This document shows, piece by piece, positions 23,801 through 60,111 of a DNA stretch of 64,000 bases. The position numbers were made by a program, and so were the translations under genes. The notes beneath the pieces are model-generated. The model was not told where the DNA came from. It did not search any database and saw nothing but the letters and a program-made list of their open reading frames with translations. Location of the stretch: assembly GCA_903813345.2 (NCBI GenBank), contig CAIIXF020000007.1, positions 23,425,564 to 23,489,563 on the forward strand, in the 5' to 3' direction. The first letter of the stretch is position 1. The number at the start of each line of letters is the position of its first letter. The stretch comes from Owenia fusiformis. Lineage: Eukaryota > Annelida > Polychaeta > Sabellida > Oweniidae.

Positions 23801-26800
23801 GAAAAATTTTACTTTTTCTGAGCTATCAAGGCAAGATTTGGCTTAACATTTTCTTTGACATAACAATAACACGCTCCGTTTGTTCTTTTTCTTCTGCCAG
23901 TGCCAGGCCAGTCGCTTGTTGTTGTTGGCGTATCAGTCATATTCAAAGCGTTTTCATCGGTTTTATTTCGTAGGGAGGTGATGATATTTTGAGTTGTGTT
24001 AGGTCTGCTAAAGCGTCTGACGTCACGAGACATTACTGGACAATATTTCCTCATCAGTTGCCGAAACTTCGTTCAAGGGCCGTCATTCTCCAACCCGAAA
24101 CTGAAATGACATCTCACTACGTATCGTGTAGATTTTCTCGCTATTTGAACCCTGACGATAGATACAGCTTGGACTTGAACAATCCTTATCATCATCTCTA
24201 TGCATGGGGCCCAACGACAGGAGGTAAGGTGCAACCTATTAATACAGAATTAATGAGGCAAGAAATACTAGTGCTGCCATAAGCTTTTTATATTTATGAG
24301 ACAAGAAATACTGCCGTTATACTGCCAAGAAATCCAGTAAAATAGCATTGTCTTAAAAGTTGTAAACAATGGAAATGGTGATATTAACATTGGGGTAATT
24401 TACCCAACAAAAATGCCTGATTATTTAGATCTGATTATTAGTCCCGAGCCCGACAAATGTTTTTCACAGAGCGGGATATAATGAATCACAGATACACTGT
24501 CACGTAATTTTATAGGGCTCGCGGGATAGTCGCAATTGCAAACACCTTTATCCCGTATGAGCACTTTGTAGCACTGAGCCTCGGGACAGTCAGTTTCTCA
24601 AACTCACTGTCCCGTAATTTTTTTTTTGCAAACGTCGGGATATAATTGATTGAGACCTGACATGTCCCGGCGCTGGGTAAAAAAATTTGCTGCGGGATAA
24701 AGTGATTTCAGAACTTGACTAATGCTGATCAAAGTATATGCTATCAAGCCATCACACATCTCTATGTAATTACCATACTATATTACCCTTGCAAAAAATT
24801 TCCATTTTTCATCATTGTGCTGAATTATATCAACATCAGTCTTTAATCTTTGAAATTTTGCTAAAGTCTATTGGGAGGGGTGGCATGTACACACTTGATT
24901 CATAATGCTATTGTTTGTGTGTGGGGGAGGGGGCATCTCCACACTTGACTCATATCATGGTCTATAAGAATCACAACTGTCACACATCATCATTCCATCT
25001 GGTATCATTTAAGTATCTATGAATATGATTTGTAGTATGTACATAAATCCTTGTGCGCCATCTTGTATCATATATTATGCCTATTGTTGTATATGTCTTT
25101 TTATTTTTTAATCAGCTAATATATATGTATATAAATCCTGGTGATGTAATGTTGTCATTTCTCAAGCCATCTCATATCATTTATCATCCTAATTGTTCAT
25201 CTGTCAACAGCTCCTTCCAGTGAATTAAATAAAAGTTGTTTTTCACGATAAATACAGGTGAAGTATTGCGGCAATTCATTAAATAAAAGTTGTTTTTCAC
25301 GATAAATACAGGTGAAGTATTGCTGCAATTCCACATGCAATCTGTTTTTCCATCTATTCCCTGCTGTTATTCCACCATATTCTATCTATATGTTTTTGAC
25401 ATGCTGATTACCCATGTCATACATCCTGAAATAAGCAAATAAGATTCATTTACCAAATATGAACAAAATCGCTCCACTACTTTTCAATTTAAAGTTAAAA
25501 AAGTAAAAATGGTCGCCATTTTTCAAAATGGTCGCCTACTACCCAAAGTGTCATTAGACAGTGTGCCATGCTTATAGTATTCACATACCAAATATGAACA
25601 AAATCGCTCCACTACTTTTCAATTTATAGTTATAAAAGTAAAAATGGTCACCATTTTTCAAAATGGTCGCCTACTACCCAAAGTGTCATTAGACAGTGTG
25701 CCATGCTTAAAGTATTCACATATAAAATATGAACAAAATCGCTCTACTACATTTTGAGTTATAGTAAAAAATGTAAAAATGGTCGCCATTTTTCAAAATG
25801 GTAGCCTCCACCAAAAGTGTTATTCGACAGTGTGCCATGCTTATAGTATTCACATACCAAATATGAACAAAATCGCTCCACTACTTCTCAATTTATAGTT
25901 ATAAAAGTAAAAATGGTCGCCATTTTTCAAAATGGTCGCCTACTACCCAAAGTGTCATTAGACAGTGTGCCATGCTTATAGTATTCACATATAAAAATAT
26001 GAACAAAATCGCTCTACTACTTTTTGAGTTACAGTAAAAAATGTAAAAATGGTCGCCATTTTTCAAAACGGTCGCCTACTACCCAAAGTGTCATTAGACA
26101 GTGTGCCATGCTTATAGTATTCACATACCAAATATGAACAAAATCGCTCCACTACTTTTCAATTTATAGTTATAAAAGTAAAAATGGTCGCCATTTTTCA
26201 AAATGGTCGCCTACTACCCAAAGTGTCATTAGACAGTGTGCCATGCTTATAGTATTCACATACCAAATATGAACAAAATCGCTCCACTACTTTTCAATTT
26301 ATAGTTATAAAAGTAAAAATGGTCACCATTTTTCAAAATGGTCGCCTACTACCCAAAGTGTCATTAGACAGTGTGCCATGCTTAAAGTATTCACATATAA
26401 AATATGAACAAAATCGCTCGACTACATTTTGAGTTATAGTAAAAAATGTAAAAATGGTCGCCATTTTTCAAAATGGTCGCCTCCACCAAAAGTGTTATTC
26501 GACAGTGTGCCATGCTTATAGTATTCACATACCAAATATGAACAAAATCGCTCCACTACTTCTCAATTTATAGTTATAAAAGTAAAAATGGTCGCCATTT
26601 TTCAAAATGGTCGCCTACTACCCAAAGTGTCATTAGACAGTGTGCCATGCTTATAGTATTCACATATAAAAATATGAACAAAATCGCTCTACTACTTTTT
26701 GAGTTACAGTAAAAAATGTAAAAATGGTCGCCATTTTTCAAAACGGTCGCCTACTACCCAAAGTGTCATTAGACAGTGTGCCATGCTTATAGTATTCACA

Positions 26801-29800
26801 TACCAAATATGAACAAAATCGCTCCACTACTTTTCAATTTATAGTTATAAAAGTAAAAATGGTCGCCATTTTTCAAAATGGTCGCCTACTACCCAAAGTG
26901 TCATTAGACAGTGTGCCATGCTTATAGTATTCACATACCAAATATGAACAAAATCGCTCCACTACTTTTCAATTTATAGTTATAAAAGTAAAAATGGTCA
27001 CCATTTTTCAAAATGGTCGCCTACTACCCAAAGTGTCATTAGACAGTGTGCCATGCTTCAAGTATTCACATATAAAATATGAACAAAATCGCTCTACTAC
27101 ATTTTGAGTTATAGTAAAAAATGTAAAAATGGTCGCCATTTTTCAAAATGGTCGCCTCCACCAAAAGTGTTATTCGACAGTGTGCCATGCTTAGAGTATT
27201 CACATACCAAATATGAACAAAATCGCTCCACTACTTCTCAATTTATAGTTATAAAAGTAAAAATGGTCGCCATTTTTCAAAATGGTCGCCTACTACCCAA
27301 AGTGTCATTAGACAGTGTGCCATGCTTATAGTATTCACATATAAAAATATGAACAAAATCGCTCAACTACTTTTTGAGTTACAGTAAAAAATGTAAAAAT
27401 GGTCGCCATTTTTCAAAACGGTCGCCTACTACCCAAAGTGTCATTAGACAGTGTGCCATGCTTATAGTATTCACATACCAAATATGAACAAAATCGCTCC
27501 ACTACTTTTCAATTTATAGTTATAAAAGTAAAAATGGTCGCCATTTTTCAAAATGGTCGCCTACTACCCAAAGTGTCATTAGACAGTGTGCCATGCTTAT
27601 AGTATTCACATACCAAATATGAACAAAATCGCTCCACTACTTTTCAATTTATAGTTATAAAAGTAAAAATGGTCACCATTTTTCAAAATGGTCGCCTACT
27701 ACCCAAAGTGTCATTAGACAGTGTGCCATGCTTAAAGTATTCACATATAAAATATGAACAAAATCGCTCGACTACATTTTGAGTTATAGTAAAAAATGTA
27801 AAAATGGTCGCCATTTTTCAAAATGGTCGCCTCCACCAAAAGTGTTATTCGACAGTGTGCCATGCTTATAGTATTCACATACCAAATATGAACAAAATCG
27901 CTCCACTACTTCTCAATTTATAGTTATAAAAGTAAAAATGGTCGCCATTTTTCAAAATGGTCGCCTACTACCCAAAGTGTCATTAGACAGTGTGCCATGC
28001 TTAAAGTATTCACATATAAAATATGAACAAAATCGCTCGACTACATTTTGAGTTATAGTAAAAAATGTAAAAATGGTCGCCATTTTTCAAAATGGTCGCC
28101 TCCACCAAAAGTGTTATTCGACAGTGTGCCATGCTTATAGTATTCACATACCAAATATGAACAAAATCGCTCCACTACTTCTCAATTTATAGTTATAAAA
28201 GTAAAAATGGTCGCCATTTTTCAAAATGGTCGCCTACTACCCAAAGTGTCATTAGACAGTGTGCCATGCTTATAGTATTCACATATAAAAATATGAACAA
28301 AATCGCTCCACTACCTTTCGAGTTATAGTAAAATACATTAAAATTGTGGCCATTTTTCAAAATGGCCGCCTTCTACCAAAAGTGTCATTAGACAGAGTGC
28401 CATGCTTGTAGTATCCATATACCAATTATGGACAAAATTGCTCCACTACTTTTCGGGTTATGGTAAAATACGTTAAAATGGCGGCAATTTTTCAAAATGG
28501 TGGTCATTTTTCAAAATGTCCGCCTTCTATTAAATGTGTCATTAGACAGTGTGCCATGCTTATGGTATTCACATTCCAAATATGAACAAAATTGCTCAAC
28601 TACTTTTCAAGTTATAGTAAAATACGTTAAAATGGCCGCCTTCTACCAAAAGTGCCATTAGACAGTGTGCCATGTTTATAGTATCCACATACCAAATATG
28701 AACAAAATCGCTCCACTACTTTTCGAGTTATAGTAAAATATGTTAAAATGACGGCCATTTTTTAAAATGGCCGCCTTCTATCAAAAGAGTCATTAGACAG
28801 TGTGCCATGCCTATAGTATTCATATTCCAAATATGAACAAAATTGCTCCACTACTTTTCAAGTTATAGTAAAATACGTTAAAATGGCGGCCATTTTTCAA
28901 AATGGCCGCCTTCTACCAAAAGTATCATTAGACAGTGTGCCATGCTTAAAGTATTCATATACCAAATATGAAGAAAATAGCTCCACTACTTTTCGAGTTA
29001 TAGTAAAAAAAAGTAAAAATTATGGCCACTCTTCAAAAATGACAGTCAGTGACATGGTATGATACATGATATGACATTGAGTGCCATTGTATGTTACAAA
29101 TATGATTGTAAGTGACATGGTATGTTTCAAGATATGACAATGAGTGACATGGTGTTACAAGATATGACAGTGAGTAACACAGTATGCTACATGATTTGAC
29201 AGTGAGTTACGTAGTATGATCAAGATATGGCAATGAGTGACATGGTGTTATAAGATCTGACAGTGAGTGACATGGTATATTACAAGGTATGACAGTAAGT
29301 GACATGGTATGTTTCAAGATATGACAGTGAGTGACATGGTATGTATAACAAATGCCAGTGACTGACATGATATGATATGACAGTCTGTGACATGGTATGA
29401 TACATGATATGACAGTGTGTGACGTTGTATGTTACAAAATATGACAGTGAGTGGCATGGTATGTAACAATAAATGACAGTGAGTGACATGGTATGTCACA
29501 TAATATGACAGTCTGTGACATGGTATGATACATGATATGACAGTGAGTGATGTGGTATGTTACAAGATATGACAGTGAGTGACACAGTATGTTACAAGAT
29601 ATGAAAGTCTGTTACATGGTATGATACAAGATTTGACAGTGAGTGACATGGTATGCTACAAGATATGACAGTCAGTGGAATGGAATGATATAAGATATGA
29701 CATTGAGTGACACAGTATGTTACAAGATATGACATTGAGTGACATATGTTACAAAATCAGACAGTAAGTGAGTGACATTGTATGTTACAAGATATGACAG

Positions 29801-32800
29801 TCTGTGACATGGTATGATACATGATATGACAGTGAGTGACATGGTACGATACAAGATATGACAGTGAGTGGCATGGTATGTCACATGATATGACAGTTTG
29901 TGACATTGAATGATACATGATATGACATTGTATGTTACAAGATATGTCAGTGAGTAACATGGTATGTTACAAGATATGACAGTGAGTGACATGGTACGAT
30001 ACAAAATATGACATTGAGTGACATTGAATGTAACAAGATATGACAGTGAGTGACATGGTATGATACAAAATATGACATTGAGTGACATGGAATGTAACAA
30101 GATATGACAGTGAGTGACATGGTATGATAGAAAATATAACATTGAGTGACATGGTATGTTACAAGATATGACAGTGAGTGGCATGGATTGTTACAAGGTA
30201 TGACAGTAAGTGACACAGTATGTTACAAGATATGACAATGAGTTACATGGTGAGTTACGATATATGACAGTAAGTGACATGGTATGTTACAAGATATGAC
30301 AGGGGGTGACAAATACAGTAATCAGTCCTAAACTGATTAGCTGAATTGACTGATTTGGCTTGAAATCTGTAGCCTAGACAAGATTTATCGGGATGACTGC
30401 CCAACGGCCTATGCATTGACCAGCAAACTGATTACTATTTAGCACCCAAGTGTCTGATAATAAAAGTCATCAAAATTTAGGGCCCTTACCTCTGTCTGTT
30501 GTTTGAAAAATAAATCAGTCTGACTCTCTGTGATAAAGTCGTGTGTTGAAAAACTGGATTATACATTCTTACTGCACCATCCCACTTTTTCCATCCTTGC
30601 TCATCCTGAAGCAGATAATACAAAATGCATCAGCATATGTCTAATTATAATTAATAAACAAGCAGAGCATGCCCGTAGTCAGGGGGTGGGAGCAGGGGGT
30701 GGGAGCGGAGGGAGGGGCAGCTCCACTCGAGGCAGAAATTCTTTTAAAATCATGTAGTTTTTTCTTGTTCACTATTCTGAGCACTTTTCGCAAGATTTTT
30801 TGCCAATCAAAAAGCTCCCCCCTGCCTAGGCAAAAAGTCCCCTTTGGTAAAACCACTCCCCCTAGGTAAATCCTGGCTACGGGCCTGCAGGGTATACAAT
30901 GATCATTAATGAGCAATCATATGCATGCATAATTGGTAATTGTCTCAGTCACATGATATAAAGTTTATACTATTATCAAGTTACAACCCTTACAATTTAT
31001 ACAAGTCAAACATATGAAACATGAAATCAAGCCAATGTTATATACATGAGAACTTGCTTCTTGTTTCACATCGAGACATCTGGTCTCAGTTTCCAGGACG
31101 AAGTCATGACTTCATGATAAAACATTCAATGATTATCGTCTGGTCCGGAAAATATTTGTGAAAATGCATTTCATATGATGTATTTTTATCGTTTGTGCAA
31201 ATACATGTGAAGAAGAATGTCAAATAAAGCTGAAATGATGTGTTTAAAATGGGACCCTGTATTAATTAATTACCCAGATGTATAAAAAATCTGTACCCGG
31301 AAGTTGAGCTTGATGTAGAATATTGTTGTCACTCTGAACTATCGCGTCTATTGGACCATAGGCGTTGCCAGGGGAGTATAATCAAACCCATAACCAATAA
31401 AAATAGAATCATGAGATAAAAGAAGAAAATAACTTTAAAATGCTTTTTATGATTTTCTAGCTCAAGTTGCATCAATTTTGCAAAATTCTTAGACACAAAC
31501 TGGCTTGCTTTATGCCACGATCGCACCCCCCCCCCTGTCTGAAAACTGGCTAAGCCCCTGATTGGACCTACTATTACTACTCATAATACTAGTAATCACC
31601 CTCCCCAGGGGTCAGGGATAATCAAGTTACCTGCAAACGTACAAGGCCTGCCATTGAACATGAAGATTTCTGAAAGTAGCAATAGAACTGTTGTAGTCGT
31701 CTAGACACTGGTTATTCTTCTTATCTTTCAATCTCTTTTATCTTTAGATCACAGCAAGTCTCTCAGGCTGATACTTCATCCTTAGGCTCTGTCTGTAAGA
31801 AAAATGGACTAAAGGTCAAAACAGAACTCTTTTATAACAATTCAAAAAGATTAAAAAATCCTCATGCTTTTTTAATTTCCTGTTTGGTGTAAAGGATAGG
31901 TATCGATAAGGTGAACTGAATTCAACAATGTTTTTCTCTTCAACTAATTATTGAAAACATTATGTAGAAAACACGGTCCTTTATGTAATGTTGACTGATT
32001 GACAACAATTTAATGCAAAAATTACTTAAATATATTTCATATAATTGTTTTTGTTAACAATTGTTTTTTAGTGCAATTGTTTTTTGTTCCTTTCTACCAA
32101 TTCTTGAGAATGAAATAAAATGTCTTTCCGAACCTTGTTGGAACAAAATAGCACATACAACATTTTCTTAAACCTCTCAATATTATAGTTATACAAAGGA
32201 GATTTTGGTTGATTTAACAAAGAGTATTCAAAAAATTAAAACAACCCCCCATAGATTAAAATTAAGATAAACCTTTTCTTTCATTAACAAGATACTTTTT
32301 AAAAATCAACCAATCTTTCCTTTGTACAATTACACCATTGACCTAAACACCTAACATGTTTATGTGGTTTTGTTTCAATGAGGTTTGGATAGATGTTTCA
32401 TTTCATTTATGATGTAACATGAAATGTGGAACACAAACAAGCACAAACTCATATTTTACAGTATGTTTGTTTTGTAATTTCAAGAGCTACAAAAAGGGGG
32501 GGGAAAGCCCCAGAGCTTCAGCGATGACTGACATAATACGTTTCTTGCGTACCACCTTCGTTTGCGCAAATTCTCACAAGTTAATTTTCGAACATAGCGC
32601 GTTGTCATGATGTTTAAATCGATGTAAACATAATCTTTACATATTTCTTTATCTTGATGTGAAAAACCAAGCTATGGTATTGGTTAATACGTCAGGAATC
32701 AACATAATATTATTCGAAGCGTTATTAGAAAATTTTGAATCCGCCATTTTTGTTTATCGATTTGGACCAATCAGAGGTGTATGTCATCTCAGTACAGGTT

Positions 32801-35800
32801 TACATTATAAGCATATGTCATCTTTGAACTCTGGTGTTAATCCCCCTATTAGCTACAAACAGAAATAAACCCGCGAATACTTGGTATAAAATGCTAAATG
32901 TAATATTTCCAATAAATATGATTTAATCCAATATTCACACATAGCTAGGCAAGCTGTGTCCGATTCCAGCAAATCCGAACAGAGTATTCACATAATGAAC
33001 AGTGTGTGAAATATCAATAAAACATGCAAGGTCACTAGTTAAACAGTTTTCATGGTGATGAATTGATTTTTCACAATGGATTTGATGACTTGCCAACTCG
33101 ACCCTTGCAAAGAACTTTTCATTGAAAATGTGTTCTTTTTACTAATTTAATTATATAAAAAATTTAATTTATAAAAAATTGCAATGTGTGAAAAGAATTT
33201 AAACCCAAGACTCAATGCATTGTCGCTGCTTCATTCCACTCAAGAGTTGTTTCCTAATCTTTGCATTCCCGCTGTGCAGTCATGCAAAGGTTTGGGAACA
33301 ACACTTGTATGATTCAGCAAACGATGCATTGAGTCTTGGGCTTAAATCCTTTAATCACACATCAGCATTCGATGTTTTATTCCACATTTATACATTTTTT
33401 GCATGTTTAGAATTTTGCTGCTGTCCTAAATTGAGTCGCATGTTATTTTTAAAATTAGGAATCACTTGTCCACATTGTCCACATCTTTCAGTTTAGCACA
33501 AAGAGTGCACTTATGTACCTAGAAAAGACTTTAAAAAAGACTCTTAAATTTTTTTGTAAAATGTATAAAAAGGAGAAAATTTAGTGAGAAAATTGACCTT
33601 CTGTCACTGAATTTTCTCATTTTTTACACATTTTACAAAACATATCTTCTCACCAGACTGTGATTCACACTCTCTTCTAAAGACCATCCCCTTGCCTTGG
33701 CAGAAAATTGATTATTTCGGCTTTGTATAAAAAATCTCTTATGGGACATAACAGTCATTGAGGGGTTCAATTTCAAAGATTTTTAACTCTCAAAATAGCT
33801 CTAATTATTAACATTTCTACTATTCCGGCTTATTTTATAACTAGACGGATGACAGATCCATAAATAAAGGCATATAGGTGCATGGTAATGTGACATGACC
33901 CGAGGCCGTTCCAGGGGAATAACTAACTAACGACCGTGGGTATAAGCCAGATAAAGAAATTGAAAGAAAGTGTGCTAAATTCGAACCCAGCTGGGCTGTT
34001 GTAGCAACTTGCTATCAAGGGTCGTGACAAATGCATCTATAATTCATCAAACTAAGATCTTTAAAATTGAACCCTTCAAAGACTGTATCATGTCCAACAT
34101 ACGTGGGTAGGTGGGTATGACGTAGGTTTTTTTATACAAAGCCGATTATTTCAAAATCATGCAGTTTTTCAAACTGCCAGATCGAGGAGCTAACAACATG
34201 AACAAGGGGGGCCCAGAGTCACATTCTACAAAAAAATTTGAAGCCCATTTATAGATAATATTGCCTAAACAGTTGTAAAAGGCCAAGAAGTCCAAGTTTC
34301 GCCAAACAAAAGTCCAGTCTTGGAGGCCCAGCAAAATTTTTTGGCCAAATATGTTTTCAAAACATATTTGGCCAAAAAATTTTGGGCCCTTGAAAACTTT
34401 TCTGGGCCCACTCAAGGGGGGTATCTACTAGCCCCCTGGACCCGCACTTTCACAGTTCTAAAATGTGAACTTACCAAAACTTGGCTAAGAATTGGATCTT
34501 TAACCCCCCACAGAATAGGCCTATAGCCCGGCCTATAGGATCTAGGCTACAGGCAAGTTAGGCCTAGGCCTACCTGCTGCGAAATTCAAAGTGCAAGGCT
34601 AGTGCCTGCCCGGCCTGCCACTGAAGAACTTGAATATTCTCTGACTCCCAAAACTAAAGTCTGTATCACAAGATAGTCTAGACCGTAGGCTACTTAGTCG
34701 TCTAGACACTGCCGTCTAACATTCCTATCTTTGAATCAATCTCTAGATCATATTCGCAGACATTCTGGCGGGACGTGAGAGATCTCGGCATGTCAAACTT
34801 GAATTGGTATATTCAGAACGAATTAACATTTTAGGCTCGCTTTTTAACAGATCAACTAAAAAATCTTACAATAAATTATTTTTTGATAATTATATAAAAT
34901 CATAACTGATACTCAGAGACTCTATTAGGAGGTTTATTCACCATTTAATTTTTCTCTCTCTTGTTTTCGAAAGATTATGTTACACATATAGTTTGACCTC
35001 TAGACTACCCCATAGCTGCAAAAATTCAACGTTTCTGAAAAGTACTTCTTCAACATTTTACAATTTAAAACTGTAAACTACCCACTCAGTGGGAAGAAGC
35101 ACTACCTTAGACATGATAGGAGCTGCAGTATTAGTCGTACGACGACGACTAAACTTCCAAGGTAGGCTAGTCAATTTCTTTGCTGTTTTTCATTTTTTGC
35201 CAATTTTGAATTTCAATTTGGGGACTTTTCTTGAACTTGTGGATGTCTCAAATACAGGCCTGTCAACCTGGGAGCACCTAAATAAGTAACTTACAAATGT
35301 TGAACATCTTCCTTCAAATTGTGAACACCTGGTCCAAATCTAAACACCTTGGTCCTAGTGTTGTCACGATTAATCCATACATCGCGATATACATGTACAT
35401 CACCAAAGCTGATTCTGGCGATGCATCGATGTCTGAAATAAACATCGATGTTTTTGAAAAAAATTTATTTGCTAAAAATCACCCTTTCTTATCTTATTTT
35501 GACGCAAATCGCTTACCTTTCTGATGTCTTATTTCATTTTCCAATGTTTTCTGATATTCTTTCACTTTAACCCTGTTTTAGCTAGTCGCAATGAACCATT
35601 AATCTAAAAAAAAATTACTTTACTTTCATTTCACCGTTACTAGAAGTTCCGGGATGTACCAGCATATTCTTATTAATTTGTTCTGTTTGGTATTTTAGTG
35701 CATTAGCATTCAGGATTTCAGTGCACTTTTCTCGGACTTTTTCTCGATGTACATCGTGATGTGCATCGATGTTTACTAACTGAAAATTGCCGATGCATCG

Positions 35801-38800
35801 ATGTACGTTTATGTGACAACACTACTTGGTCCAAATTTCGACGGGGAGACAAAAAATTTAAAGCAAATGCATGACATGCAATTTGCATAAAAAATTTGAA
35901 TGAAATGTGTAAGATTTTTTCGGCACTCCTCTTTTGATGTTTGCTCCTGTAATTATTCACTTCTTCACCTCTTTAAATTGTGATTCAAATTGGTTGATCA
36001 AATTTTCGGACTTTGACCTCAAATTCGAATATAAATATTTTTTTAGAAAAATACTGACTCATTATTATATTTTTAAAGGTCTTTCAAATAAAGTGAAATG
36101 AAGCCAAAATCAGCTAAAATTATGCGATGTCGTAAAATGGCGTGACTGGAATATGATGCAATCAGCTGTGTCATGTCATGACACATCTGTCATGTCAAAA
36201 AAAACGGCTTGACTTCAGTAAATGCATGACAAATACGCATATAGTATTAAATAGTAAGATCAACGCGATGCAAGCATTTATTACCTATTCAAAGACATGA
36301 CTGAACTGATTATTCACGATGAAACAGAAATACTGAATTCAACTGCTTACTTTATTTTTACCAAATATTCAGCTGCCTCTATACCGATCAATGGTGGTTT
36401 TAATGGAAAGTAACGAATAAATAAGATGAAATATGAAAAATGTGTACACCTGGAAATCAGCCATTTGTTCACCTTCATTGGGAAATCTCCGGGTACTTTA
36501 AGGAATAAAGAATCATGTATCATTCTATATTGTAAATATAAAAGCATGAGTGTATGTACTAACCCGTACACATAATGCACAAAGGAACATTTGGAGAAAT
36601 ATTAGCCTAAAGTAAGCAGCTGAATTCAGTATTTTAATTTAAGCTGTTACGATTACCAAGTGATGTATATTATGCAAATAAAGGCTTTCTAAAAATCAGA
36701 CACAGACTTTGAAATGGGTAATGCAAGCATACAAACATGTACTCACATACCTTATGAATAAAAACACATCATCCCATATACCCCTGTGTGTGATTCATTT
36801 GAAGATGGCTTTGGAAAAGTCGGTTCCTGGGGTCTGTTCAGACTGCGGTAACATTAAATTGTAAATCGTGTCAAAACCACCGTTAACACACTGAACAAAA
36901 TGCCAATGCACATGTTTTTCCCTGTTTAATATTCCTGGGAATATTTCACAATTTTTTTGTCTATTCTGCAATAAAAACTCTAGGCTGAGACCAGCTCTAG
37001 GTACAAAACAAAAGAAATATGGTGTTTATTTGATTCTAGTTAACATCCTAGGCCCCTGTGAATTTTAAGATCACATGGCATTTCAAAAAAATTCCCAATT
37101 TGAATGGCTTATTGCTTTTTACAAACACCTGGCATTCGAAGAACATTTGGTTTAAAAAATTTGTTTCAAAAGTCATATTTCAGTGTTTCAAAAGTCAAAT
37201 TCGATGGTTTATTATTCAAATCTTATTACGTCTGTCCGTCCGTCTGGGCAATAACTCAAATACCGTTGGCCCGATTTTGTTCTTATTTTGTACACATATA
37301 CCCTATGGGGGTAGAATTCTGCTTAAAAGCCGATTTTCAAAATGGCTGCTCATTTAAAAATGGCGGCCATTTTAGTGCCAATTTTACAGTAATCTAGGTG
37401 CAATATGTAAAACTGTAATAGCAATATGTTTCAAATGTAAAAAAGATATATAGGACATTAATAAAGCTAGAATGTAGATATGAAAGAAGCACATGGCAGC
37501 CATCTTGAAAAATGGCGGCCTTTACTCGTTATTTTACGATTTTTGCTGTAACTCGAAACGTAGTGGAGCGATTTTGTTCATATTTGGTATGCAGGGTTCG
37601 AACTTAACTTTTTAGACTGGTAGTGTATGTGGATACTATAAGCATTGCACACTGTCTAATGACACTTTGGGTAGTAGGCGACCATTTTGAAAAATGGCAA
37701 CCATTTTTACTTTTTTAACTATAACTTGAAAAGTAGTGGAGCGATTTTGTTCATATTTGGTATGTGAATACTATAAGCATGGCACACTGTCTAATAACAC
37801 TTTTGGTGGAGGAGACCATTTTGAAAAATGGCGACCATTTTTACATTTTTTACTATAACTCAAAAAGTAGTAGAGCGATTTTGTTCATATTTTTATATGT
37901 GAATACTATAAGCATGGCACACTGTCTAATAACACTTTGGGTAGTAGGCGACCATTTTGAAAAATGGTGACCGTTTTTACTTTTATAACTATAAATTGAA
38001 AAGTAGTGGAGCAATTTTGTTCATATTTGGTATGTGAATACTATAAGCATGGCACACTGTCTAATGACACTTTGGGTAGTAGGCGACCATTTTGAAAAAT
38101 GGCGACCATTTTTACTTTTATAACTATAAATTGAAAAGTAGTGGAGCGATTTTGTTCATATTTGGTATGTGAATACTATAAGCATGGCACACTGTCTAAT
38201 GACACTTTGGGTAGTAGGCAACCATTTTGAAAAATGGCGACCATTTTTACTTTTATAACTATAAATTGAAAAGTAATGGAGCGATTTTGTTCATATTTGG
38301 TATGTGAATACTATAAGCATGGCACACTGTCTAATGACACTTTGGGTAGTAGGCGCCCATTTTGAAAAATGGCGACCATTTTTACATTTTTTACTATAAT
38401 TCAAAAAGTAGTAGAGCGATTTTGTTCATATTTTATTTGTGAATACTATAAGCATGGCACACTGTCTAATGACACTTTGGGTAGTAGGCGACCATTTTGA
38501 AAAATGGCGACCATTTTTACTTTTATAACTATAAATTGAAAAGTAGTGGAGCGATTTTGTTCATATTTGGTATGTGAATACTATAAGCATGGCACACTGT
38601 CTAATGACACTTTGGGTAGTAGGTGACCGTTTTGAAAAATGGCGACCATTTTTACATTTTTTACTGTAACTCAAAAAGTAGTAGAGCGATTTTGTTCATA
38701 TTTTATTTGTGAATACTATAAGCATGGCACACTGTCTAATGACACTTTGGGTAGTAGGCGACCATTTTGAAAAATGGCGACCATTTTTACTTTTATAACT

Positions 38801-41800
38801 ATAAATTGAAAAGTAGTGGAGCGATTTTGTTCATATTTGGTATGTGAATACTATAAGCATGGCACACTGTCTAATGACACTTTGGGTAGTAGGCGACCGT
38901 TTTGAAAAATGGCGACCATTTTTACATTTTTTACTGTAACTCAAAAAGTAGTTGAGCGATTTTGTTCATATTTTTATATGTGAATACTATAAGCATGGCA
39001 CACTGTCTAATGACACTTTGGGTAGTAGGCGACCATTTTGAAAAATGGCGACCATTTTTACTTTTATAACTATAAATTGAGAAGTAGTGGAGCGATTTTG
39101 TTCATATTTGGTATGTGAATACTATAAGCATGGCACACTGTCGAAGAACACTTTTGGTGGAGGCGACCATTTTGAAAAATGGCGACCATTTTTACATTTT
39201 TTACTATAACTCAAAATGTAGTAGAGCGATTTTGTTCATATTTTATATGTGAATACTTTAAGCATGGCACACTGTCTAATGACACTTTGGGTAGTAGGCG
39301 ACCATTTTGAAAAATGGTGACCATTTTTACTTTTATAACTATAAATTGAAAAGTAGTGGAGCGATTTTGTTCATATTTGGTATGTGAATACTATAAGCAT
39401 GGCACACTGTCTAATGACACTTTGGGTAGTAGGCGACCATTTTGAAAAATGGCGACCATTTTTACTTTTATAACTATAAATTGAAAAGTAGTGGAGCGAT
39501 TTTGTTCATATTTGGTATGTGAATACTATAAGCATGGCACACTGTCTAATGACACTTTGGGTAGTAGGCGACCGTTTTGAAAAATGGCGACCATTTTTAC
39601 ATTTTTTACTGTAACTCAAAAAGTAGTTGAGCGATTTTGTTCATATTTTTATATGTGAATACTATAAGCATGGCACACTGTCTAATGACACTTTGGGTAG
39701 TAGGCGACCATTTTGAAAAATGGCGACCATTTTTACTTTTATAACTATAAATTGAGAAGTAGTGGAGCGATTTTGTTCATATTTGGTATGTGAATACTAT
39801 AAGCATGGCACACTGTCGAATAACACTTTTGGTGGAGGCGACCATTTTGAAAAATGGCGACCATTTTTACATTTTTTACTATAACTCAAAATGTAGTAGA
39901 GCGATTTTGTTCTTATTTTATATGTGAATACTTGAAGCATGGCACACTGTCTAATGACACTTTGGGTAGTAGGCGACCATTTTGAAAAATTGTGACCATT
40001 TTTACTTTTATAACTATAAATTGAAAAGTAGTGGAGCGATTTTGTTCATATTTGGTATGTGAATACTATAAGCATGGCACACTGTCTAATGACACTTTGG
40101 GTAGTAGGCGACCATTTTGAAAAATGGCGACCATTTTTACTTTTATAACTATAAATTGAAAAGTAGTGGAGCGATTTTGTTCATATTTGGTATGTGAATA
40201 CTATAAGCATGGCACACTGTCTAATGACACTTTGGGTAGTAGGCGACCGTTTTGAAAAATGGCGACCATTTTTACATTTTTTACTGTAACTCAAAAAGTA
40301 GTAGAGCGATTTTGTTCATATTTTTATATGTGAATACTATAAGCATGGCACACTGTCTAATGACACTTTGGGTAGTAGGCAACCATTTTGAAAAATGGCG
40401 ACCATTTTTACTTTTATAACTATAAATTGAGAAGTAGTGGAGCGATTTTGTTCATATTTGGTATGTGAATACTATAAGCATGGCACACTGTCGAATAACA
40501 CTTTTGGTGGAGGCGACCATTTTGAAAAATGGCGACCATTTTTACATTTTTTACTATAACTCAAAATGTAGTCGAGCGATTTTGTTCATATTTTATATGT
40601 GAATACTTTAAGCATGGCACACTGTCTAATGACACTTTGGGTAGTAGGCGACCATTTTGAAAAATGGTGACCATTTTTACTTTTATAACTATAAATTGAA
40701 AAGTAGTGGAGCGATTTTGTTCATATTTGGTATGTGAATACTATAAGCATGGCACACTGTCTAATGACACTTTGGGTAGTAGGCGACCATTTTGAAAAAT
40801 GGCGACCATTTTTACTTTTATAACTATAAATTGAAAAGTAGTGGAGCGATTTTGTTCATATTTGGTATGTGAATACTATAAGCATGGCACACTGTCTAAT
40901 GACACTTTGGGTAGTAGGCAACCGTTTTGAAAAATGGCGACCATTTTTACATTTTTTACTGTAACTCAAAAAGTAGTAGAGCGATTTTGTTCATATTTTT
41001 ATATGTGAATACTATAAGCATGGCACACTGTCTAATGACACTTTGGGTAGTAGGCGACCATTTTGAAAAATGGCGACCATTTTTACTTTTATAACTATAA
41101 ATTGAGAAGTAGTGGAGCGATTTTGTTCATATTTGGTATGTGAATACTATAAGCATGGCACACTGTCGAATAACACTTTTGGTGGAGGCTACCATTTTGA
41201 AAAATGGCGACCATTTTTACATTTTTTACTATAACTCAAAATGTAGTAGAGCGATTTTGTTCATATTTTATATGTGAATACTTTAAGCATGGCACACTGT
41301 CTAATGACACTTTGGGTAGTAGGCGACCATTTTGAAAAATGGTGACCATTTTTACTTTTATAACTATAAATTGAAAAGTAGTGGAGCGATTTTGTTCATA
41401 TTTGGTATGTGAATACTATAAGCATGGCACACTGTCTAATGACACTTTGGGTAGTAGGCGACCATTTTGAAAAATGGCGACCATTTTTACTTTTTTAACT
41501 TTAAATTGAAAAGTAGTGGAGCGATTTTGTTCATATTTGGTAAATGAATCTTATTTGCTTATTTCAGGATGTATGACATGGGTAATCAGCATGTCAAAAA
41601 CATATAGATAGAATATGGTGGAATAACAGCAGGGAATAGATGGAAAAACAGATTGCATGTGGAATTGCAGCAATACTTCACCTGTATTTATCGTGAAAAA
41701 CAACTTTTATTTAATGAATTGCCGCAATACTTCACCTGTATTTATCGTGAAAAACAACTTTTATTTAATTCACTGGAAGGAGCTGTTGACAGATGAACAA

Positions 41801-42762
41801 TTAGGATGATAAATGATATGAGATGGCTTGAGAAATGACAACATTACATCACCAGGATTTATATACATATATATTAGCTGATTAAAAAATAAAAAGACAT
41901 ATACAACAATAGGCATAATATATGATACAAGATGGCGCACAAGGATTTATGTACATACTACAAATCATATTCATAGATACTTAAATGATACCAGATGGAA
42001 TGATGATGTGTGACAGTTGTGATTCTTATAGACCATGATATGAGTCAAGTGTGGAGATGCCCCCTCCCCCACACACAAACAATAGCATTATGAATCAAGT
42101 GTGTACATGCCACCCCTCCCAATAGACTTTAGCAAAATTTCAAAGATTAAAGACTGATGTTGATATAATTCAGCACAATGATGAAAAATGGAAATTTTTT
42201 GCAAGGGTAATATAGTATGGTAATTACATAGAGATGTGTGATGGCTTGATAGCATATACTTTGATCAGCATTAGTCAAGTTCTGAAATCACTTTATCCCG
42301 CAGCAAATTTTTTTACCCAGCGCCGGGACATGTCAGGTCTCAATCAATTATATCCCGACGTTTGCAAAAAAAAAATTACGGGACAGTGAGTTTGAGAAAC
42401 TGACTGTCCCGAGGCTCAGTGCTACAAAGTGCTCATACGGGATAAAGGTGTTTGCAATTGCGACTATCCCGCGAGCCCTATAAAATTACGTGACAGTGTA
42501 TCTGTGATTCATTATATCCCGCTCTGTGAAAAACATTTGTCGGGCTCGGGACTAATAATCAGATCTTGATTATTTTGTGATATGTATTCCAGATGATGAG
42601 ATGAAGAAGCATACAATAAAGAAACCGCCAACATCCAGTAAAAAAATTGACATTAAAAGTTATGAAAGTTTCATTAGTGCCTCGGACCCACATACAACTG
42701 CAAAATCTATTTCAATGTACATACTTATTATAGCTTCTATAACATTTGGAATGTTAATATGA
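14673..42762 (+). CDS. Reeler + DOMON domain secreted/GPI-anchored protein, seven exons
   Basis: Exons 14673-14862, 20435-20669, 22031-22095, 22663-22714, 22975-23110, 23974-24223 and 42593-42762 sum to 1098 nt, that is 365 residues plus stop, with all phases agreeing. A signal peptide (about 1-20) is followed by a Reeler domain (about 22-163; LPFKTLFLQARD, then VGVVSFNDTSYW) and a DOMON domain (about 170-309; FGKTDCGHHECDY, GYAGVGFSSDKEM, HHLYAWGPTTGG). Met226 is placed like the axial haem ligand of DOMON domains. A Lys/Ser linker and a terminal hydrophobic stretch (349-365, ending at the stop) suggest a GPI anchor with attachment near Ser338-Asp341. Family members with this order, such as FRRS1, add a cytochrome b561 domain for ferric reduction; that domain is absent, so electron transfer across the membrane is not expected. 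A haem-binding or immune surface protein is plausible. The last intron holds an 18-kb foldback element. Confidence 0.88.
14863..16367. other. Intron 1, first part
   Basis: AT-rich intron. No exon, RNA gene or element end recognised. Confidence 0.5.
16368..17102. mobile_element. 735-bp foldback MITE, full copy
   Basis: The end CAAAGGATTGGTATCGATA is inverted at the right as ATTGATACCCATCCTTTG. The inverted similarity continues inward for over 60 bp (TTTCTCTTAAACCA on both arms). A second hairpin (ACAAAGGACATTTTGGTTGA / TCAACCAAGCTTTCCTTTGT) lies at 16671-16808. No coding sequence. A truncated copy is at 31891-32408. I could not identify a target duplication. Confidence 0.75.
17103..20049. other. 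Intron 1, middle part
   Basis: No exon or element end recognised. Open frames at 17570-17761 and 19323-19634 show no domain and are not flanked by matching splice sites. Confidence 0.45.
20050..20370 (-). pseudogene. Degraded non-LTR retrotransposon reverse transcriptase fragment
   Basis: The - strand reads, through frameshifts and stops, GTFLDISAAFDALAIKC near 20350-20300 and GSILGPLMFLIYIKMPDNIL near 20165-20100. These are the first-Asp motif (D.S.AFD) and the SILGPL.F.IYI.D.P motif of Jockey/CR1-type reverse transcriptases. The catalytic (F/Y)ADD box is not intact. It lies in antisense orientation just upstream of exon 2 of the Reeler-DOMON gene. Confidence 0.8.
20435..20669 (+). CDS. Reeler-DOMON exon 2: core of the Reeler domain
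   Basis: Acceptor TATTTTCAG ends at 20434; donor GTAAGT begins at 20670. It encodes VIGSLPFKTLFLQARD, a Thr-rich strand region and LKWEAPSAKDYTGHVQF, typical of the Reeler fold. Two bases remain for exon 3. Confidence 0.9.
20670..22030. other. Intron 2, no feature seen
   Basis: AT-rich. Several short open frames have no support. Confidence 0.5.
22031..22095 (+). CDS. Reeler-DOMON exon 3: end of Reeler
   Basis: Acceptor CTGTTTCAG ends at 22030; donor GTTGGT begins at 22096. It encodes GVVSFNDTSYWEDVTSATI, the last strands of the Reeler domain. Confidence 0.85.
22096..22662. other. Intron 3, no feature seen
   Basis: Plain intron ending in TTTGTTTAG. Confidence 0.5.
22663..22714 (+). CDS. Reeler-DOMON exon 4: linker into DOMON
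   Basis: A 52-bp exon between TTGTTTAG and GTAAGA. It encodes FPPIDVSTCGTEKGCF, the cysteine-containing linker that precedes DOMON. Confidence 0.82.
22975..23110 (+). CDS. Reeler-DOMON exon 5: first half of DOMON
   Basis: Acceptor TTTTTACAAG ends at 22974; donor GTACGT begins at 23111. It encodes FGKTDCGHHECDY and GGYAGVGFSSDKEM. The exon ends on the Met expected to bind haem, at a codon boundary. Confidence 0.87.
23111..23973. other. Intron 5, no feature seen
   Basis: Plain intron ending in TTTATTTCGTAG. Confidence 0.5.
23974..24223 (+). CDS. Reeler-DOMON exon 6: second half of DOMON
   Basis: It encodes GGDDILSCV, a Tyr/Trp-rich strand region and HHLYAWGPTTG. Donor GTAAGG begins at 24224. 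One base (G) remains and combines with AT of exon 7 to give Asp. Confidence 0.87.
24418..24426. repeat. Left 9-bp target duplication TGATTATTT
   Basis: TGATTATTT directly precedes the left end of the 18-kb foldback element and is repeated exactly at 42567-42575 after its right end. Confidence 0.88.
24427..25452 (+). repeat. Left outer domain of the foldback inverted repeat
   Basis: Unique-sequence terminal domain, inverted at 41542-42566. Its first ~280 bp carry a cluster of CGGGA words. Near 25220-25325 a 54-bp segment (ATTAAATAAAAGTTG...) is tandemly doubled, in both arms. Confidence 0.9.
24440..24706. promoter_or_regulatory. Subterminal CGGGA word cluster, left arm
   Basis: Nine CGGGA cores in both orientations (for example GCGGGATA, CTCGGGACAG, TGTCCCG) lie within 267 bp of the end, in an otherwise AT-rich region. 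Such subterminal repeats are common transposase-binding sites in DNA transposons; binding here is inferred. Confidence 0.6.
25453..29025 (+). repeat. Left satellite array, ~135-bp monomers in a 675-bp higher-order repeat
   Basis: About 26 monomers, each with CATTAGACAGTGTGCCATGC, CATATGAACAAAATCGCT-like and AAAATGGTCGCC words. Anchoring on GACAG gives spacings of 134-136 bp. A distinct monomer (CCACCAAAAGTGTTATTCGAC) recurs at 25830, 26505, 27180 and 27855, exactly 675 bp apart, so five monomers form a higher-order unit. Monomers from about 28300 inward are clearly diverged. Open frames here are the array read through. Confidence 0.93.
29038..30310. repeat. 32-bp minisatellite
   Basis: About 40 imperfect copies of a unit like GACAGTGAGTGACATGGTAT plus 12 more bases. 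It adjoins the inner edge of the left satellite array and has no inverted counterpart next to the right array. The long Cys/His/Ser-rich open frames on the - strand (up to 154 codons) are translations of this repeat. Confidence 0.93.
30311..30667. other. Foldback interior, unassigned
   Basis: Single-copy-looking sequence with no gene seen. Confidence 0.4.
30668..30890. mobile_element. Small MITE with GCCCGTAGYCAG ends
   Basis: ATGCCCGTAGTCAGGGGG at the left is inverted as CTGGCTACGGGCCTG at the right, with G-rich and C-rich interiors. Similar end words (CTGGCTAC, CTGGCTAAGCCCC) appear at 31545-31560 and near 58508, so it belongs to a dispersed family. Target duplication uncertain. Confidence 0.6.
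31358..31560. mobile_element. 203-bp MITE with 8-bp target duplication
   Basis: ATTGGACC flanks it exactly at 31350-31357 and 31561-31568. The ends AGGCGTTGCCAGGGG and CTGGCTAAGCCCCTG are imperfect inverted repeats. Eight bp and this end type suggest a hAT-derived MITE. Confidence 0.75.
31891..32408. mobile_element. Truncated copy of the 735-bp foldback MITE
   Basis: Similar along its length to 16368-16895 (AAAGGATAGGTATCGATA start, TTTTCTCTTCAAC, the inner ACAAAGGAGATTTTGGTTGA hairpin). It stops near 32408, lacking the right arm. Confidence 0.8.
32409..35355. other. Foldback interior with scattered inverted repeats
   Basis: No gene recognised. It contains two inverted-repeat pairs: AAACCCAAGACTCAATGCAT near 33201 against ATGCATTGAGTCTTGGGCTT near 33323, and a perfect 25-bp-arm hairpin near 34332-34383 centred on TATGTTTTCAAAACATA. 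Confidence 0.5.
34332..34383. repeat. Perfect hairpin in foldback interior
   Basis: AAAATTTTTTGGCCAAATAT and its exact reverse complement are separated by only a few bases, giving an arm of about 25 bp. Confidence 0.8.
35356..35824. mobile_element. Non-autonomous hAT element
   Basis: Ends TAGTGTTGTCAC and GTGACAACACTA, with exact 8-bp duplications CTTGGTCC at 35348-35355 and 35825-35832. TAGTGTTGTCACGAT is a familiar hAT terminus. The interior is rich in ATCGATG words and carries no transposase. Confidence 0.9.
36333..36629. mobile_element. 297-bp Tc1/mariner-type MITE
   Basis: CTGAATTCAACTGCTTACTT at the left is inverted as AAGTAAGCAGCTGAATTCAG at the right. TA flanks it at 36331-36332 and 36630-36631. 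No coding sequence. Confidence 0.8.
36632..37550. other. Foldback interior next to the right array
   Basis: No gene seen. From about 37220 the sequence resembles highly diverged array monomers (CGATTTTGTTC, AAAATGGCGGCCATTTT), so the array probably once extended further inward. Confidence 0.55.
37551..41541 (-). repeat. Right satellite array, inverted, same 675-bp higher-order repeat
   Basis: About 29 monomers in inverted orientation. The marker monomer (GTCGAATAACACTTTTGGTGG) recurs at 39141, 39816, 40491 and 41166, again exactly 675 bp apart, mirroring the left array position for position from about 38999 outward. Inside that point the monomer order differs between arms. Confidence 0.93.
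41542..42566 (-). repeat. Right outer domain of the foldback inverted repeat
   Basis: Inverted copy of 24427-25452, including the doubled 54-bp segment near 41665-41770 and the CGGGA cluster at 42288-42553. The last bases, ACTAATAATCAGATCT, include a branch-point-like ACTAAT (42551-42556). Confidence 0.92.
42567..42575. repeat. Right 9-bp target duplication TGATTATTT
   Basis: Exact copy of 24418-24426. Only 17 bases separate it from the first base of exon 7 of the Reeler-DOMON gene. Confidence 0.88.
42593..42762 (+). CDS. Reeler-DOMON exon 7: linker and C-terminal hydrophobic tail
   Basis: Acceptor TATGTATTCCAG ends at 42592. AT completes the Asp codon from exon 6. It encodes a Lys/Ser/Thr-rich linker (KKHTIKKPPTSSKK) and a terminal hydrophobic run (MYILIIASITFGMLI) ending at TGA 42760-42762. 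Phase and total length support this as the true last exon despite the 18.4-kb intron. Confidence 0.82.
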
Positions 42763-49857: not shown

Positions 49858-52226
49858 GCGAGAGGTCTCGGTCGAGGGGTCTGGGAGACAAGGTCTAGTA
49901 GCTAAGCTTCCCCAAACCACCGTCAGTACTTATGTGACAGGTAGAGTATATTTGGTTGATCCTAGGGTTATGACATTGATGTGTCATTTCCTATAATCAT
50001 CGAGTTATTCGATGATTACTAACTTATATTTCTTCATCAGCAGCCGAAAGAATGCTGTTTGGGTTTTAGTTCTATCATTCAGTTGTGCTAGAGATAACTT
50101 TTGGTTAAGATGACGTTGTGGTTTGGTTCTGTGTTTAAGTTTCATATATAGTGGTGTATGTTTTATGTTCATGGTATGTAAATTGGAAGAGTTGTAAATT
50201 TGTTGTCTTTAGTAGCGTTTCTGCTTTATCGGAGTTTGCGGTATTTTCGTTTATAAAAATGGTATTGGTTTGGATGTGTGTAGTGTGAGTTTGTGGTGGG
50301 TTCCCTGTTTGTCAAAGGTTTGGGTATTTAGTCTTGTGTTTGAGCTTAGTGTTGATTTTGTGACAGTGTGTAGTGGTGGTAGTATATATTATTGTTAATA
50401 TGTTTACTTGACAGGGGATCTGTTTTCCCGTGTCGGGTTGTATTTTGGTTTTATCGAAGTTTAGCAGTATTTTGGTTTGTAAATTTCGTGTATGTTTGGC
50501 GGCGTTTGTGGTATGTATGTGGTAGAAAATTTGTTTTTCCATGAATTGGGTGTATAGTGTCATGTCTGAGGTTTATTTTGGTGTGTGTGTTATGGTAGTA
50601 GCATCTCTTGTTATTGAGATATTAACTTGATTTTGGAGGCTGTCTTCCCGTGATTTCATTATGTTTCGATTATCCCGTGTTTGTGTTTTGTCGGGATCGT
50701 GTATGCGTATTGATTAATTGCATCAAGTTGTGGTCAGTTTGTTTGTTTGAATTTGTTTTGTTTGTTTGGTTTGTTTTTTACCTTTTATGGTTAGGTGTTT
50801 TTTATGTCAGTAGTGTGTGCGTTGGGGGAGTTGTTAGCTTGTTCGCGATTGTTTGTATTTTGGTTTTATCGGAGTTTTGTAGTGTTTTGGTTTGTAAATT
50901 TCTTGTTTTATTTGTTTTGTGTGGCGTTTTTATATGTAAGTGGTAGATAAGTTGTTTTGCAACAGTTTTGGGTGTGTAGTGTCATGTCTGAGGTTCATTT
51001 TGGTGTGTGTGTTATGGTAGTAGCATCTCTTGTTGTTGAGATATTAACCTGATTTTGGAGGCTGTCTTCCCGTGATTTCATTATGTTTTGATTATCCCGT
51101 GTTTGTGTTTTGTCGGGCAGTCTGTGTCGGGATCGTGTATGCGTATTGATTAATTGCATCAAGTTGTTGTCAATTTGTTTGTTTGAATTTGTTTTGTTTG
51201 TTTGGTTTGTTGTTTACCCTTATGGTGAGGTGTTTTTTATTTTGATAGTGTGTGCGTTGGGGAAGTTGTTAGCTCGTTCGCGATTGGTTACGGTATTTTG
51301 GTTTTATCGGAGTTTTGTGGTATTTTGGTTTGTAAATTTCGTGTTTGTTTTGTGGCTTTTTTTGGTATGTAAGTGGTAGGTAAGTTGTTTTTCAACGGTT
51401 TGGGTGTGTAGTGTCATGTCTAAGCTTTATTTCGATGTATATGTTGTGGTCGTAGCATCTCTTGTTATTGAGGTATTAACTTGTTTCTGGGGGCTGTCTT
51501 ACCGTGTTTTCAATTTGTTGACTGTCCCGTGTTTGTGTTTTGTCGGGATGGTGTATGCGTTTTGGTGAATTGTAGATCACGATTTTGTCCGTTTGTTTGT
51601 TAAAATTTGTTTCGTTTGTTTTGTTTGTTGATATGAGTTTTATATGATGTACGGGTAATGTGTTTGATAGTCTGTTGTATATGCTTGTGTTTTACATGTA
51701 CTTCCATTGTTTTTTTAAGAATGGGCTGTTTCTAAATAGGGTTCCCGGTTGGGGAAACCTGGTTTGGTTGGTTGTTTGTGAGTAAATGCGTTGTTTTTTA
51801 AAGTATGAATTGGAGTGAGTGTTTATCTCCATAGGGTTATAAAGTGTATATATTTTTGTATTACCGGGTCGGCAGAAAAAGATTGTTCAATATTCGGGAC
51901 GCTGATAAGAAATGTTCGAAACACCAAGTGTGGTAAGATGGTACAGCCCTTCTTCTACAAAATGTGTCCGATCGTTTTTGAGATGAAATATACTTGGTAT
52001 TTGTCCATAAGCTGAGCAATGTGACATACGAGAGTTGATCATAAAGTTCTCATAATATCTCTCTAATTTCTTTATTTTTCAATATTTTCCTATGAAATTT
52101 TCACAGAATGTGCAGCATGAAATGGTTTATTAATCCAGCTAACAATATTTAGAATAACGGAAACATTGAATAAGAAATGGTTGCCATAGTAACTTGAAAT
52201 CAAGTTTTTTTATTTTTGGGAATTGT
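49858..52226 (+). repeat. Large direct repeat unit A, G/T-rich
   Basis: It begins GAGAGGTCTCGGTCG and contains GACAAGGTCTAGTAGCTAAG and CTATCATTCAGTTGT. From 50560 to about 51640 it has a ~430-bp minisatellite (CATCTCTTGTT.TTGAGATAT words; GTATGCGTATTGATTAATTG). Near 51720-52020 comes a conserved tail (TTCGAAACACCAAGT, GTCCATAAGCTGAGC). The + strand is strongly G/T-rich. Unit B repeats the same order of landmarks. No coding potential recognised. Confidence 0.8.
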
Positions 52227-55236: not shown

Positions 55237-56110
55237 CATTGATTTCGAAAAAGTATTGAGATTTGTAGTAATTCATGACATAATGTTCCCGGTTAGTTTA
55301 ATAAAATACTTGACAGAACTCAATAGAACATGGCGGATGCTTTACAGGGGAACTAGTTCGCCATGCACATCCCGGGATGCACATACAGTAGCGTTGTATG
55401 ATATTGTACAAGTTCTGTAAAGTAGCCTACAATATTTACAGTGCACCTTTGTCCAGTGGATAATATATTACATGTTTGCATATTGATTTCGAAAAAGTAT
55501 TGAGTTTTGTAGTAATTCATGACATTCAGATCCCGGGTAATTTAACAAAATACTTGAAAGAACTCAATAGAACATGGCGGATGCTTTACAGGGGAACCAG
55601 TTCGCCATGCACATCCCGGGATGCACATACAGTAGCGTTGTATGATATTGTACAAGTTCTGTAAAGTAGGCTACAATATTTACAGTGCACCTTTGTCCAG
55701 TAGATAATATATTACATGTTTGCATATTGATTTCGAAAAAGTATTGAGATTTGTAGTAATTCATGACATTCAGTTCCTTGGTAGTTTAACAAAATACTTG
55801 AAAGAACTCAACAGAACATGGCAGATGCTTTACAGGGGGAACCAGTTCGCAATGCACATCCCGGGATGCACATACAGTAGCGTTGTATGATATTGTACAA
55901 GTTCTGTAAAGTAGCCTACAATATTTACAGCGCACCTTTGTCCAGCGGATACTATATTACATTTTTGCATCGATTTCGGAAAAGTATTGAGATTTGTAGT
56001 AATTTAGAATTTTCAACTCCCAGGCAGTTTCACAAAATACTGAATGGAACAGGGCAGATGCTTACAGGGGAACCAGTTCGCCATGCGCATACAGTGGCGT
56101 TGTATGTTTT
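55237..56110 (+). repeat. 244-bp tandem array
   Basis: Four monomers, anchored on AACATGGCGGATGC-like words at 55327, 55571, 55815 and 56048. Each contains GATTTCGAAAAAGTATTGAG, GGGGAACCAGTTCGC and a CATCCCGGGATG palindrome. A fifth copy is split between 56886-56945 and 57739-57840. The open frames here are the array read through. Confidence 0.88.
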
Positions 56111-59770: not shown

Positions 59771-60111
59771 TTCTTTACCCTTACAGATCAAAATAGACAT
59801 TAGTTAAGACTGAACTTTTATTCAATTTACGCAACTATTTTTTTTTTAGCGTACAGCAAATCAAATTCTCAACAACTTTTGAGTTAGAATCAAAAAGTAA
59901 GAATTTATTTAAACCTGCCTCTTTAATGTAAGTTCAACGCACTCCTAAAGCTTTTATCTCGACCTCTTATTGAGATGGTAGAATTCCACTATCATCCCAA
60001 TACGCTCTACGAGCAACATTCTTTATATAAGATTTCAGCAAAATTTATTTCAATTAAAATAATAATTAAATGTATAAACCAATGCAAGGGTAACATAACA
60101 AATCTGTATAA
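59771..60111 (+). other. LINE inter-ORF spacer
   Basis: AT-rich, with no coding sequence. It is long for an L1-type spacer, so ORF2 translation probably needs reinitiation or an internal entry mechanism (inference). Confidence 0.6.

Follow-up and report, generated by a model that had tools for sequence, protein, structure and literature searches.

Foldback transposons have been known for decades, and for many of them the mobilising enzyme is missing. FB/NOF of Drosophila and TU of the sea urchin combine tandem-repeat foldback arms with 8-9-bp target duplications and mostly non-coding copies. The family that we describe here from the annelid Owenia fusiformis differs from both in its satellite unit, its conserved long core and its protein content, a comparison of descriptions and not of aligned sequences. 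The nearest described arrangement is that of Tetris in Drosophila virilis: 220-bp tandem repeats lie in inverted arms around a non-coding middle, the duplications are of 8-10 bp, the repeats also form free arrays, the repeat is common to the terminus, Mutator membership was suggested, and the enzyme moving the element was stated to be missing (PMC4079207). The Owenia element resembles Tetris in its tandem repeats inside inverted arms, its middle without coding sequence and its similar duplications; unlike Tetris, it has a 135-bp unit, its listed satellite matches all lie inside elements, no repeat common to the terminus was seen, and a probable driver has been found for its family.

The Mutator-like (MULE) superfamily makes 8-11-bp target duplications, and two of its groups are relevant here (PMC6446971). 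The MULE-like group Rehavkus, reported from Arthropoda and Annelida, has 9-bp duplications, a minisatellite by the arm, terminal inverted repeats (TIRs) of 26-400 bp and a PHD finger in its transposase; Phantom MULEs have 8-10-bp duplications, FLYWCH or SWIM fingers in some members, TIRs of 18-613 bp and, in aphids, a minisatellite after the ORF (PMC6446971). As in Rehavkus, a minisatellite lies beside an arm in the Owenia family, whose duplications are of 8 or 9 bp against 9 bp there, but the Owenia arms are kilobases long and its transposase-like region is part of a fusion with RecQ and a kinase. The likeness to Phantom likewise consists of the duplications and the minisatellite, with Phantom TIRs in a shorter range than the kilobase arms of Owenia. 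In arthropods, MULEs 1.4-10.0 kb long are reported in another survey (PMC13359780). Polintons, Teratorn, enlarged CACTA elements and Helitrons with a helicase are named as giant transposons in a review (PMC6431247); the Owenia family is like these in its large size and extra enzymatic domains and unlike them in its integration enzymes. The words helicase and kinase are absent from the main text of PMC6446971, as is the word RecQ from that of PMC6431247, and the open-licence literature yielded nothing relevant on satellite-armed giant Mutator elements in annelids.

Structure of the foldback element

The window, by which we mean the whole stretch of 64,000 nucleotides analysed (G000:C7:23425564-23489563, in a 498-Mb assembly that was searched as the genome), contains a non-autonomous foldback element of 18,140 bp at 24427-42566. 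Its outer 100 bases are perfect inverted copies of each other, and it is directly flanked by exact 9-bp target duplications, TGATTATTT, at 24418-24426 and 42567-42575, so that the inverted ends and the exact 9-bp copies seen in the sequence-only reading are borne out. Each arm is made up of an outer domain, about 1 kb long, and an array of a 135-bp satellite. The left outer domain (24427-25443, plus strand) has the terminal motif AGATCTGATTATTAGTCCCG and agrees with the right arm at 100% over its first 1000 bases; the right arm's outer domain (41550-42566, minus strand) is its inverted copy. The left array (25444-29038, plus strand) holds 26.6 copies of the unit as delimited by TRF, and the right array (37625-41549, minus strand), inverted with respect to the left one, holds 29.1; satellite monomers of about 135 bp were thus correctly recognised in the arms from the start. 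The collinearity of the arms also holds, over a greater length than the claimed ~3.57 kb: the inverted alignment extends over about 4.6 kb (24427-29019 against 42566-37974, 96.7% in 4618 columns). A 32-bp minisatellite of about 40 copies (29039-30311, plus strand) adjoins the left array only, and also occurs in other family copies. Between the arms lies a non-coding core (30312-37624, plus strand) with small nested repeats inside, which is common, in whole or in part, to 21 other paired elements.

The longest open frame of the element is of 156 aa and lies inside the minisatellite, and the core has no frame above 101 aa. When the core frames of at least 80 aa were searched singly against Pfam, 10 of the 11 gave no match above the cut-off, the one at 37104-37397 being outside the search. 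A hidden gene in the core is ruled out by these frame lengths and by the Pfam result on the 10 frames, in agreement with the earlier statement that no transposase is recognisable in this element. The element meets the Foldback criterion of long tandem-repeat inverted arms around a variable or non-coding middle, and with arms of about 4.6 kb it also meets the MULE criterion of long terminal inverted repeats.

A 406-base query from the array gave 356 matches in the 40 places scored out of 2164 candidates, and each satellite match listed lies, by eye, inside an element of the foldback family; free arrays are not excluded. A derivation of the 135-bp unit from the terminus by duplication, as in Tetris, was rejected, since the unit showed no similarity beyond shuffles either to the outer domain or to the first 100 bases. 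There is a match to the core, explained by a partial unit at the core's right edge.

A family of inserted elements

A 24-base form of the end, allowing up to 3 mismatches, was found at 69 genome sites against 0 for a control pattern, which excludes chance as the source of the ends; a looser form of 20 bases occurred at 83 sites, with 8 for its control. Sorting by hand placed 54 of the 69 sites in 27 facing pairs and left 15 ends unpaired. The pairs are spread over 11 large contigs; the shortest is 86 bp long and the longest 38.0 kb, with lengths of 190 bp, 2.7 kb and 10.9 kb among those in between. All or part of the window's non-coding core is present in 22 of them, and these core-bearing pairs are 12.3-27.6 kb long. 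The absence of other genomic copies, which would have refuted the transposon reading, is therefore not what is found. The target duplications are exact over 9 bp in 16 pairs and over 8 bp in 10, with sequences that differ among these 26 pairs; the remaining pair, C2:16967902, has 8 bp with one mismatch. The expectation of further copies flanked by different duplications was thus met, except that the duplication is of 8 or 9 bp and not always of 9. The family is defined by the end AGATCTGATTNTTAGTCCCG, the 8- or 9-bp target duplication and the arms of 135-bp satellite. The sixteen 9-bp targets have an A/T-rich centre (for example, 15 of 16 at position 4 and 15 of 16 at position 6).

For C12:18266862, the joined flanks minus the second 8-bp copy match an uninterrupted repeat gap-free over 285 of 292 bases, and this is direct evidence of insertion. 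In two weaker cases the match is to a related repeat in the window: at C5:40297220 it covers 206/259, contains 15 gaps and crosses the junction, and at C2:16967902 it covers 149/175 and extends no more than 25 bases beyond the junction. The proposed empty-site check is therefore satisfied by a paralogous site and not by an allele or a sister species.

These data also bear on two alternatives to a transposon, namely misassembly and a segmental inverted duplication. Long, near-identical inverted arms are hard to assemble, and in the window element the two arms are 100% identical over their outer 1 kb; against this stand the 27 pairs on 11 large contigs with 26 exact 8-9-bp duplications of differing sequence, the gap-free empty site at C12:18266862, and the unequal copy numbers of the window's own arrays (26.6 and 29.1). 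We reject an assembly or inversion artefact for the family as a whole on the strength of the 27 pairs and the empty site, and it retains next to no credibility. The window element is a mobile element, a recently mobile non-autonomous foldback-type DNA transposon.

Among the unpaired ends, C8:16288074 carries the core and has a truncated far end. Eleven of the 15 were read 5-10 kb inward, which leaves out C8:16288074, C9:25859639, C11:5713556 and, past its first 140 bases, C10:33516425. Inward of these 11 no transposase was recognised by eye (Pfam was applied only to two frames of C10:33506561-33516560); the largest frames and alignments gave host-type frames, a LINE, arm remnants and a 32-bp array. 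Core remnants without detected ends lie at C3:10558268-10559508 and C2:7434020-7436333.

Several of these places have features of their own. At C10:33506561-33516560, two family ends in the same direction, 9.8 kb apart, flank NB-ARC, TPR, beta-helix and MYND frames, perhaps a host gene between two remnants. The 10.9-kb pair C2:16967902-16978800 has no core match and has satellite matches from 16969401 to 16977295; it is perhaps a satellite-only foldback. In C11:786704-791703, a family end is followed at 1156-4280 by about 95 copies of the 32-bp minisatellite, and a second end was not detected. An insert of about 5.5 kb is nested in the core of C1:37261574 (about 3466-9028 of C1:37268900-37278899), with a 1005-aa frame that matches DUF7869 at 2.7e-8.

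A 38-kb relative with a transposase-like frame

One member of the family, G000:C12:29017515-29055544, is 38,030 bp long, with the family's ends and an exact 9-bp duplication, CATAATTTC. Its ends are 99.7% alike over 350 bases and 97.4-97.7% like an end of C6:1554281, a core-bearing member that has the window's core at 92%. The 135-bp satellite in its arms matches the window array at 91.5%, the arms also carry the outer domain and the 32-bp minisatellite, and the 38-kb member has hardly any core in common with the window element. Between the arms, on the minus strand, runs a single open frame of 3104 codons, which we handled as P0002 (1003 residues) and P0001 (2100 residues) with one codon across the join; because the frame runs from one stop codon to the next, the true start of the protein may lie further in. 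Pfam gave Pkinase (6.6e-37), DEAD (3.6e-21), Helicase_C (3e-20), RecQ_Zn_bind (7.2e-9) and RQC (4.3e-6). Among solved structures, WRN entries are closest to the helicase part (3.4e-47); for the kinase part, the best matches are Roco4 and LIM kinase 1; by eye, GSGKS and DEAH are present in the helicase, and the lysine, the catalytic D and DFG in the kinase. Upstream of the frame lie a ubiquitin-protease exon (UCH, 3.3e-6) and a second stretch whose likeness to USP46 reaches no better than E 0.23; on the opposite strand is a frame for a GDSL hydrolase (PF00657, 5.5e-8). No RecQ-transposase fusion was among the matches listed in the open-licence literature, which is no proof of absence, and a viral-contig scan with P0001 gave no relative.

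The weak link is the assignment of this frame to the MULEs, which rests on a Pfam match below the cut-off and on motifs read by eye in the predicted protein. PF10551 (MULE) matches the whole frame at E 0.0052 (17.6 bits) and its C-terminal piece alone at 0.0019 (19 bits), both below the Pfam cut-off of 27.6 bits; a genome-wide search at E 0.001 gave 8 PF10551 matches, and the frame was not among them. Comparison with the genome's own MULE frames was also weak (hmmsearch 1.5 bits; hhalign probability 1.4-1.9%). D1447, D1524 and E1638 of P0001, placed by motif position and given their roles by eye, lie in LDGS, LDHDLALAKAAHTVWP and MQEGGFN, and these contexts resemble, by eye, those of the genome's own MULE frames, although the computed comparisons are weak. 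MULE transposases have a zinc-finger DNA-binding domain before the DDE domain; a WxC...C...HxH pattern precedes D1447 by eye, without a Pfam match. The PHD finger of Rehavkus was not matched by Pfam in P0001, P0002 or the C-terminal piece. As to duplication length, the 16 exact 9-bp and 10 exact 8-bp cases among the 27 pairs meet the MULE criterion.

The same mixture of 8 and 9 bp, together with the score below the cut-off, could be taken to indicate another superfamily with 8-9-bp duplications (Merlin or hAT-like), in which case the MULE label would be wrong and the mobility right. This seems to us distinctly improbable: PF10551 is the only transposase family listed for the frame (the genome search did not include hAT families), the four Merlin-type matches to PF12762 are located elsewhere, so that the Merlin test of an IS1595-type DDE between family ends is not met, and arm-side minisatellites are reported for Rehavkus and Phantom (PMC6446971). 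What had been called a non-autonomous MULE/Foldback-type family is therefore upheld in the family, its ends and its duplications, and is only thinly supported in the name MULE. Our verdict is that the window element is of the Mutator/Foldback kind, with an unusual protein in its 38-kb relative.

As the main reading, at a probability of roughly 0.7, we propose a non-coding foldback family in which the 38,030-bp member, with its kinase-RecQ-MULE-like DDE frame, is the probable enzyme source; both mobilisation and expression are inferred. An autonomous relative with a transposase between the same ends, predicted beforehand, has thus probably been found. This reading of the 38-kb element as driver rests on one copy in one assembly, and it has against it that the non-coding members are not simple deletions of that element, as they have arms and satellites in common with it and hardly any core.

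Many MULEs capture genes; Pack-MULEs are named in PMC6431247. The family could then be real and its 38-kb member the carrier of a captured kinase-RecQ gene, with the real transposase unassembled, lost or more diverged. The capture of genes by many MULEs, the weakness of the MULE match, which the genome-wide PF10551 search did not list, and the single copy of the frame found in the genome would all suit such cargo. The frame is nevertheless no copy of a detected host gene: its RecQ part has ten other genome matches at only 30-47% identity, so that this part is no recent copy of one. The transposase part has a single genome match, itself (absence from the assembly being no proof), and D, D and E stand in order with MULE-like contexts by eye. 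The genome's 8 PF10551 and 4 PF12762 matches were rejected as partner transposases, as none lies between family ends. A nest scan of the 38-kb element (exact 12-base inverted repeats 100 bp-20 kb apart with 4-10-bp duplications) gave 19 candidates. Of these, 18 lie inside the satellite array, and the other, a 12-base pair with a 4-bp copy, begins within the frame; none of the 19 encloses the frame, longer or degenerate nests not being excluded. We consider a cargo origin unlikely, while leaving it a real place.

Taking the 38-kb member as the enzyme source, its protein would cut at the ends and insert family members. The 86-bp and 190-bp copies have perfect 9-bp duplications, from which we infer that little beyond the ends is needed and that recognition is terminal; the transposase may recognise the last few tens of bases and insert at A/T-rich targets. 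RecQ helicases unwind hairpins and aid gap repair, which fits foldback DNA. By inference only, the fused RecQ domain might unwind the long inverted arms in excision, gap repair or replication. We would give even chances to the full scheme, a two-part system of an undescribed kind in which a 38-kb foldback-ended kinase-RecQ-MULE driver, with ubiquitin-protease and GDSL sequence alongside, mobilises non-coding satellite-armed elements (most of 11-28 kb) in trans, its helicase recruited for self-folding DNA. Non-coding foldback elements occur here in one genome together with a plausible driver that has the same ends, and the copies of 86 bp and 190 bp could be ready-made minimal donors for an assay. 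If the RecQ-transposase fusion is true, the excision, repair and replication of DNA with kilobase inverted arms would become directly testable, as would how such arms host satellite DNA.

Arm types, core orientation and neighbouring sequences

A tree of 22 core segments, including the unpaired C8 copy and excluding C11:26702171, whose core sequence was not fetched, separates with full support into group B, of 10 rows, and group A, of 12. Group A divides with moderate support into A1 (5 rows, including the window) and A2 (7 rows); of the tree's 19 inner branches, 15 lack resolution, and the bootstrap had not converged. The A1 cores are 99-100% identical to the window core over two segments, which points to recent movement. 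In some elements the two arms can be told apart. In A1, one arm is 100% identical to the first 1000 bases of the window element, against about 94% for the other. In A2, one arm matches the same bases at 93% and the other is absent among the 40 scored places; one arm of this second type, when read, matches the window arm only in pieces, yet its outer 350 bases agree. Group B ends read GACCC or GATCA.

The order of arms and core is shared in 3 of 4 informative A1 elements, in 8 of 8 in A2 (including the unpaired C8) and in 6 of 8 in B. In 3 of these 20 (C2:28327721, C5:13779354 and C6:35495521), the core is reversed relative to distinguishable arms. C12:29681147 also looks flipped and was not counted because its arms belong to another group; the window element and C6:1554281 are uninformative because both of their arms are alike. 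Since reversed cores occur in A1 and B, which are separate core groups, at least two flip events would be needed. This suggests recombination between arms, unless the flips are assembly errors across long inverted arms. Such arm-arm recombination would flip the core and may make two arms alike; that both window arms are of the first A1 type suggests conversion or exchange.

Outside the element, the window contains tandem arrays at 5160-5555 (unit about 42 bp), 50440-51547 (about 422 bp), 52822-53911 (about 412 bp) and 55238-56041 (about 244 bp). By eye, an open frame at 6718-7122 is like the C-terminal end of a class B GPCR, and an apparently intact LINE at 58847-63897 has a frame of 307 aa and, after it, one of 1261 aa for an endonuclease/reverse transcriptase.
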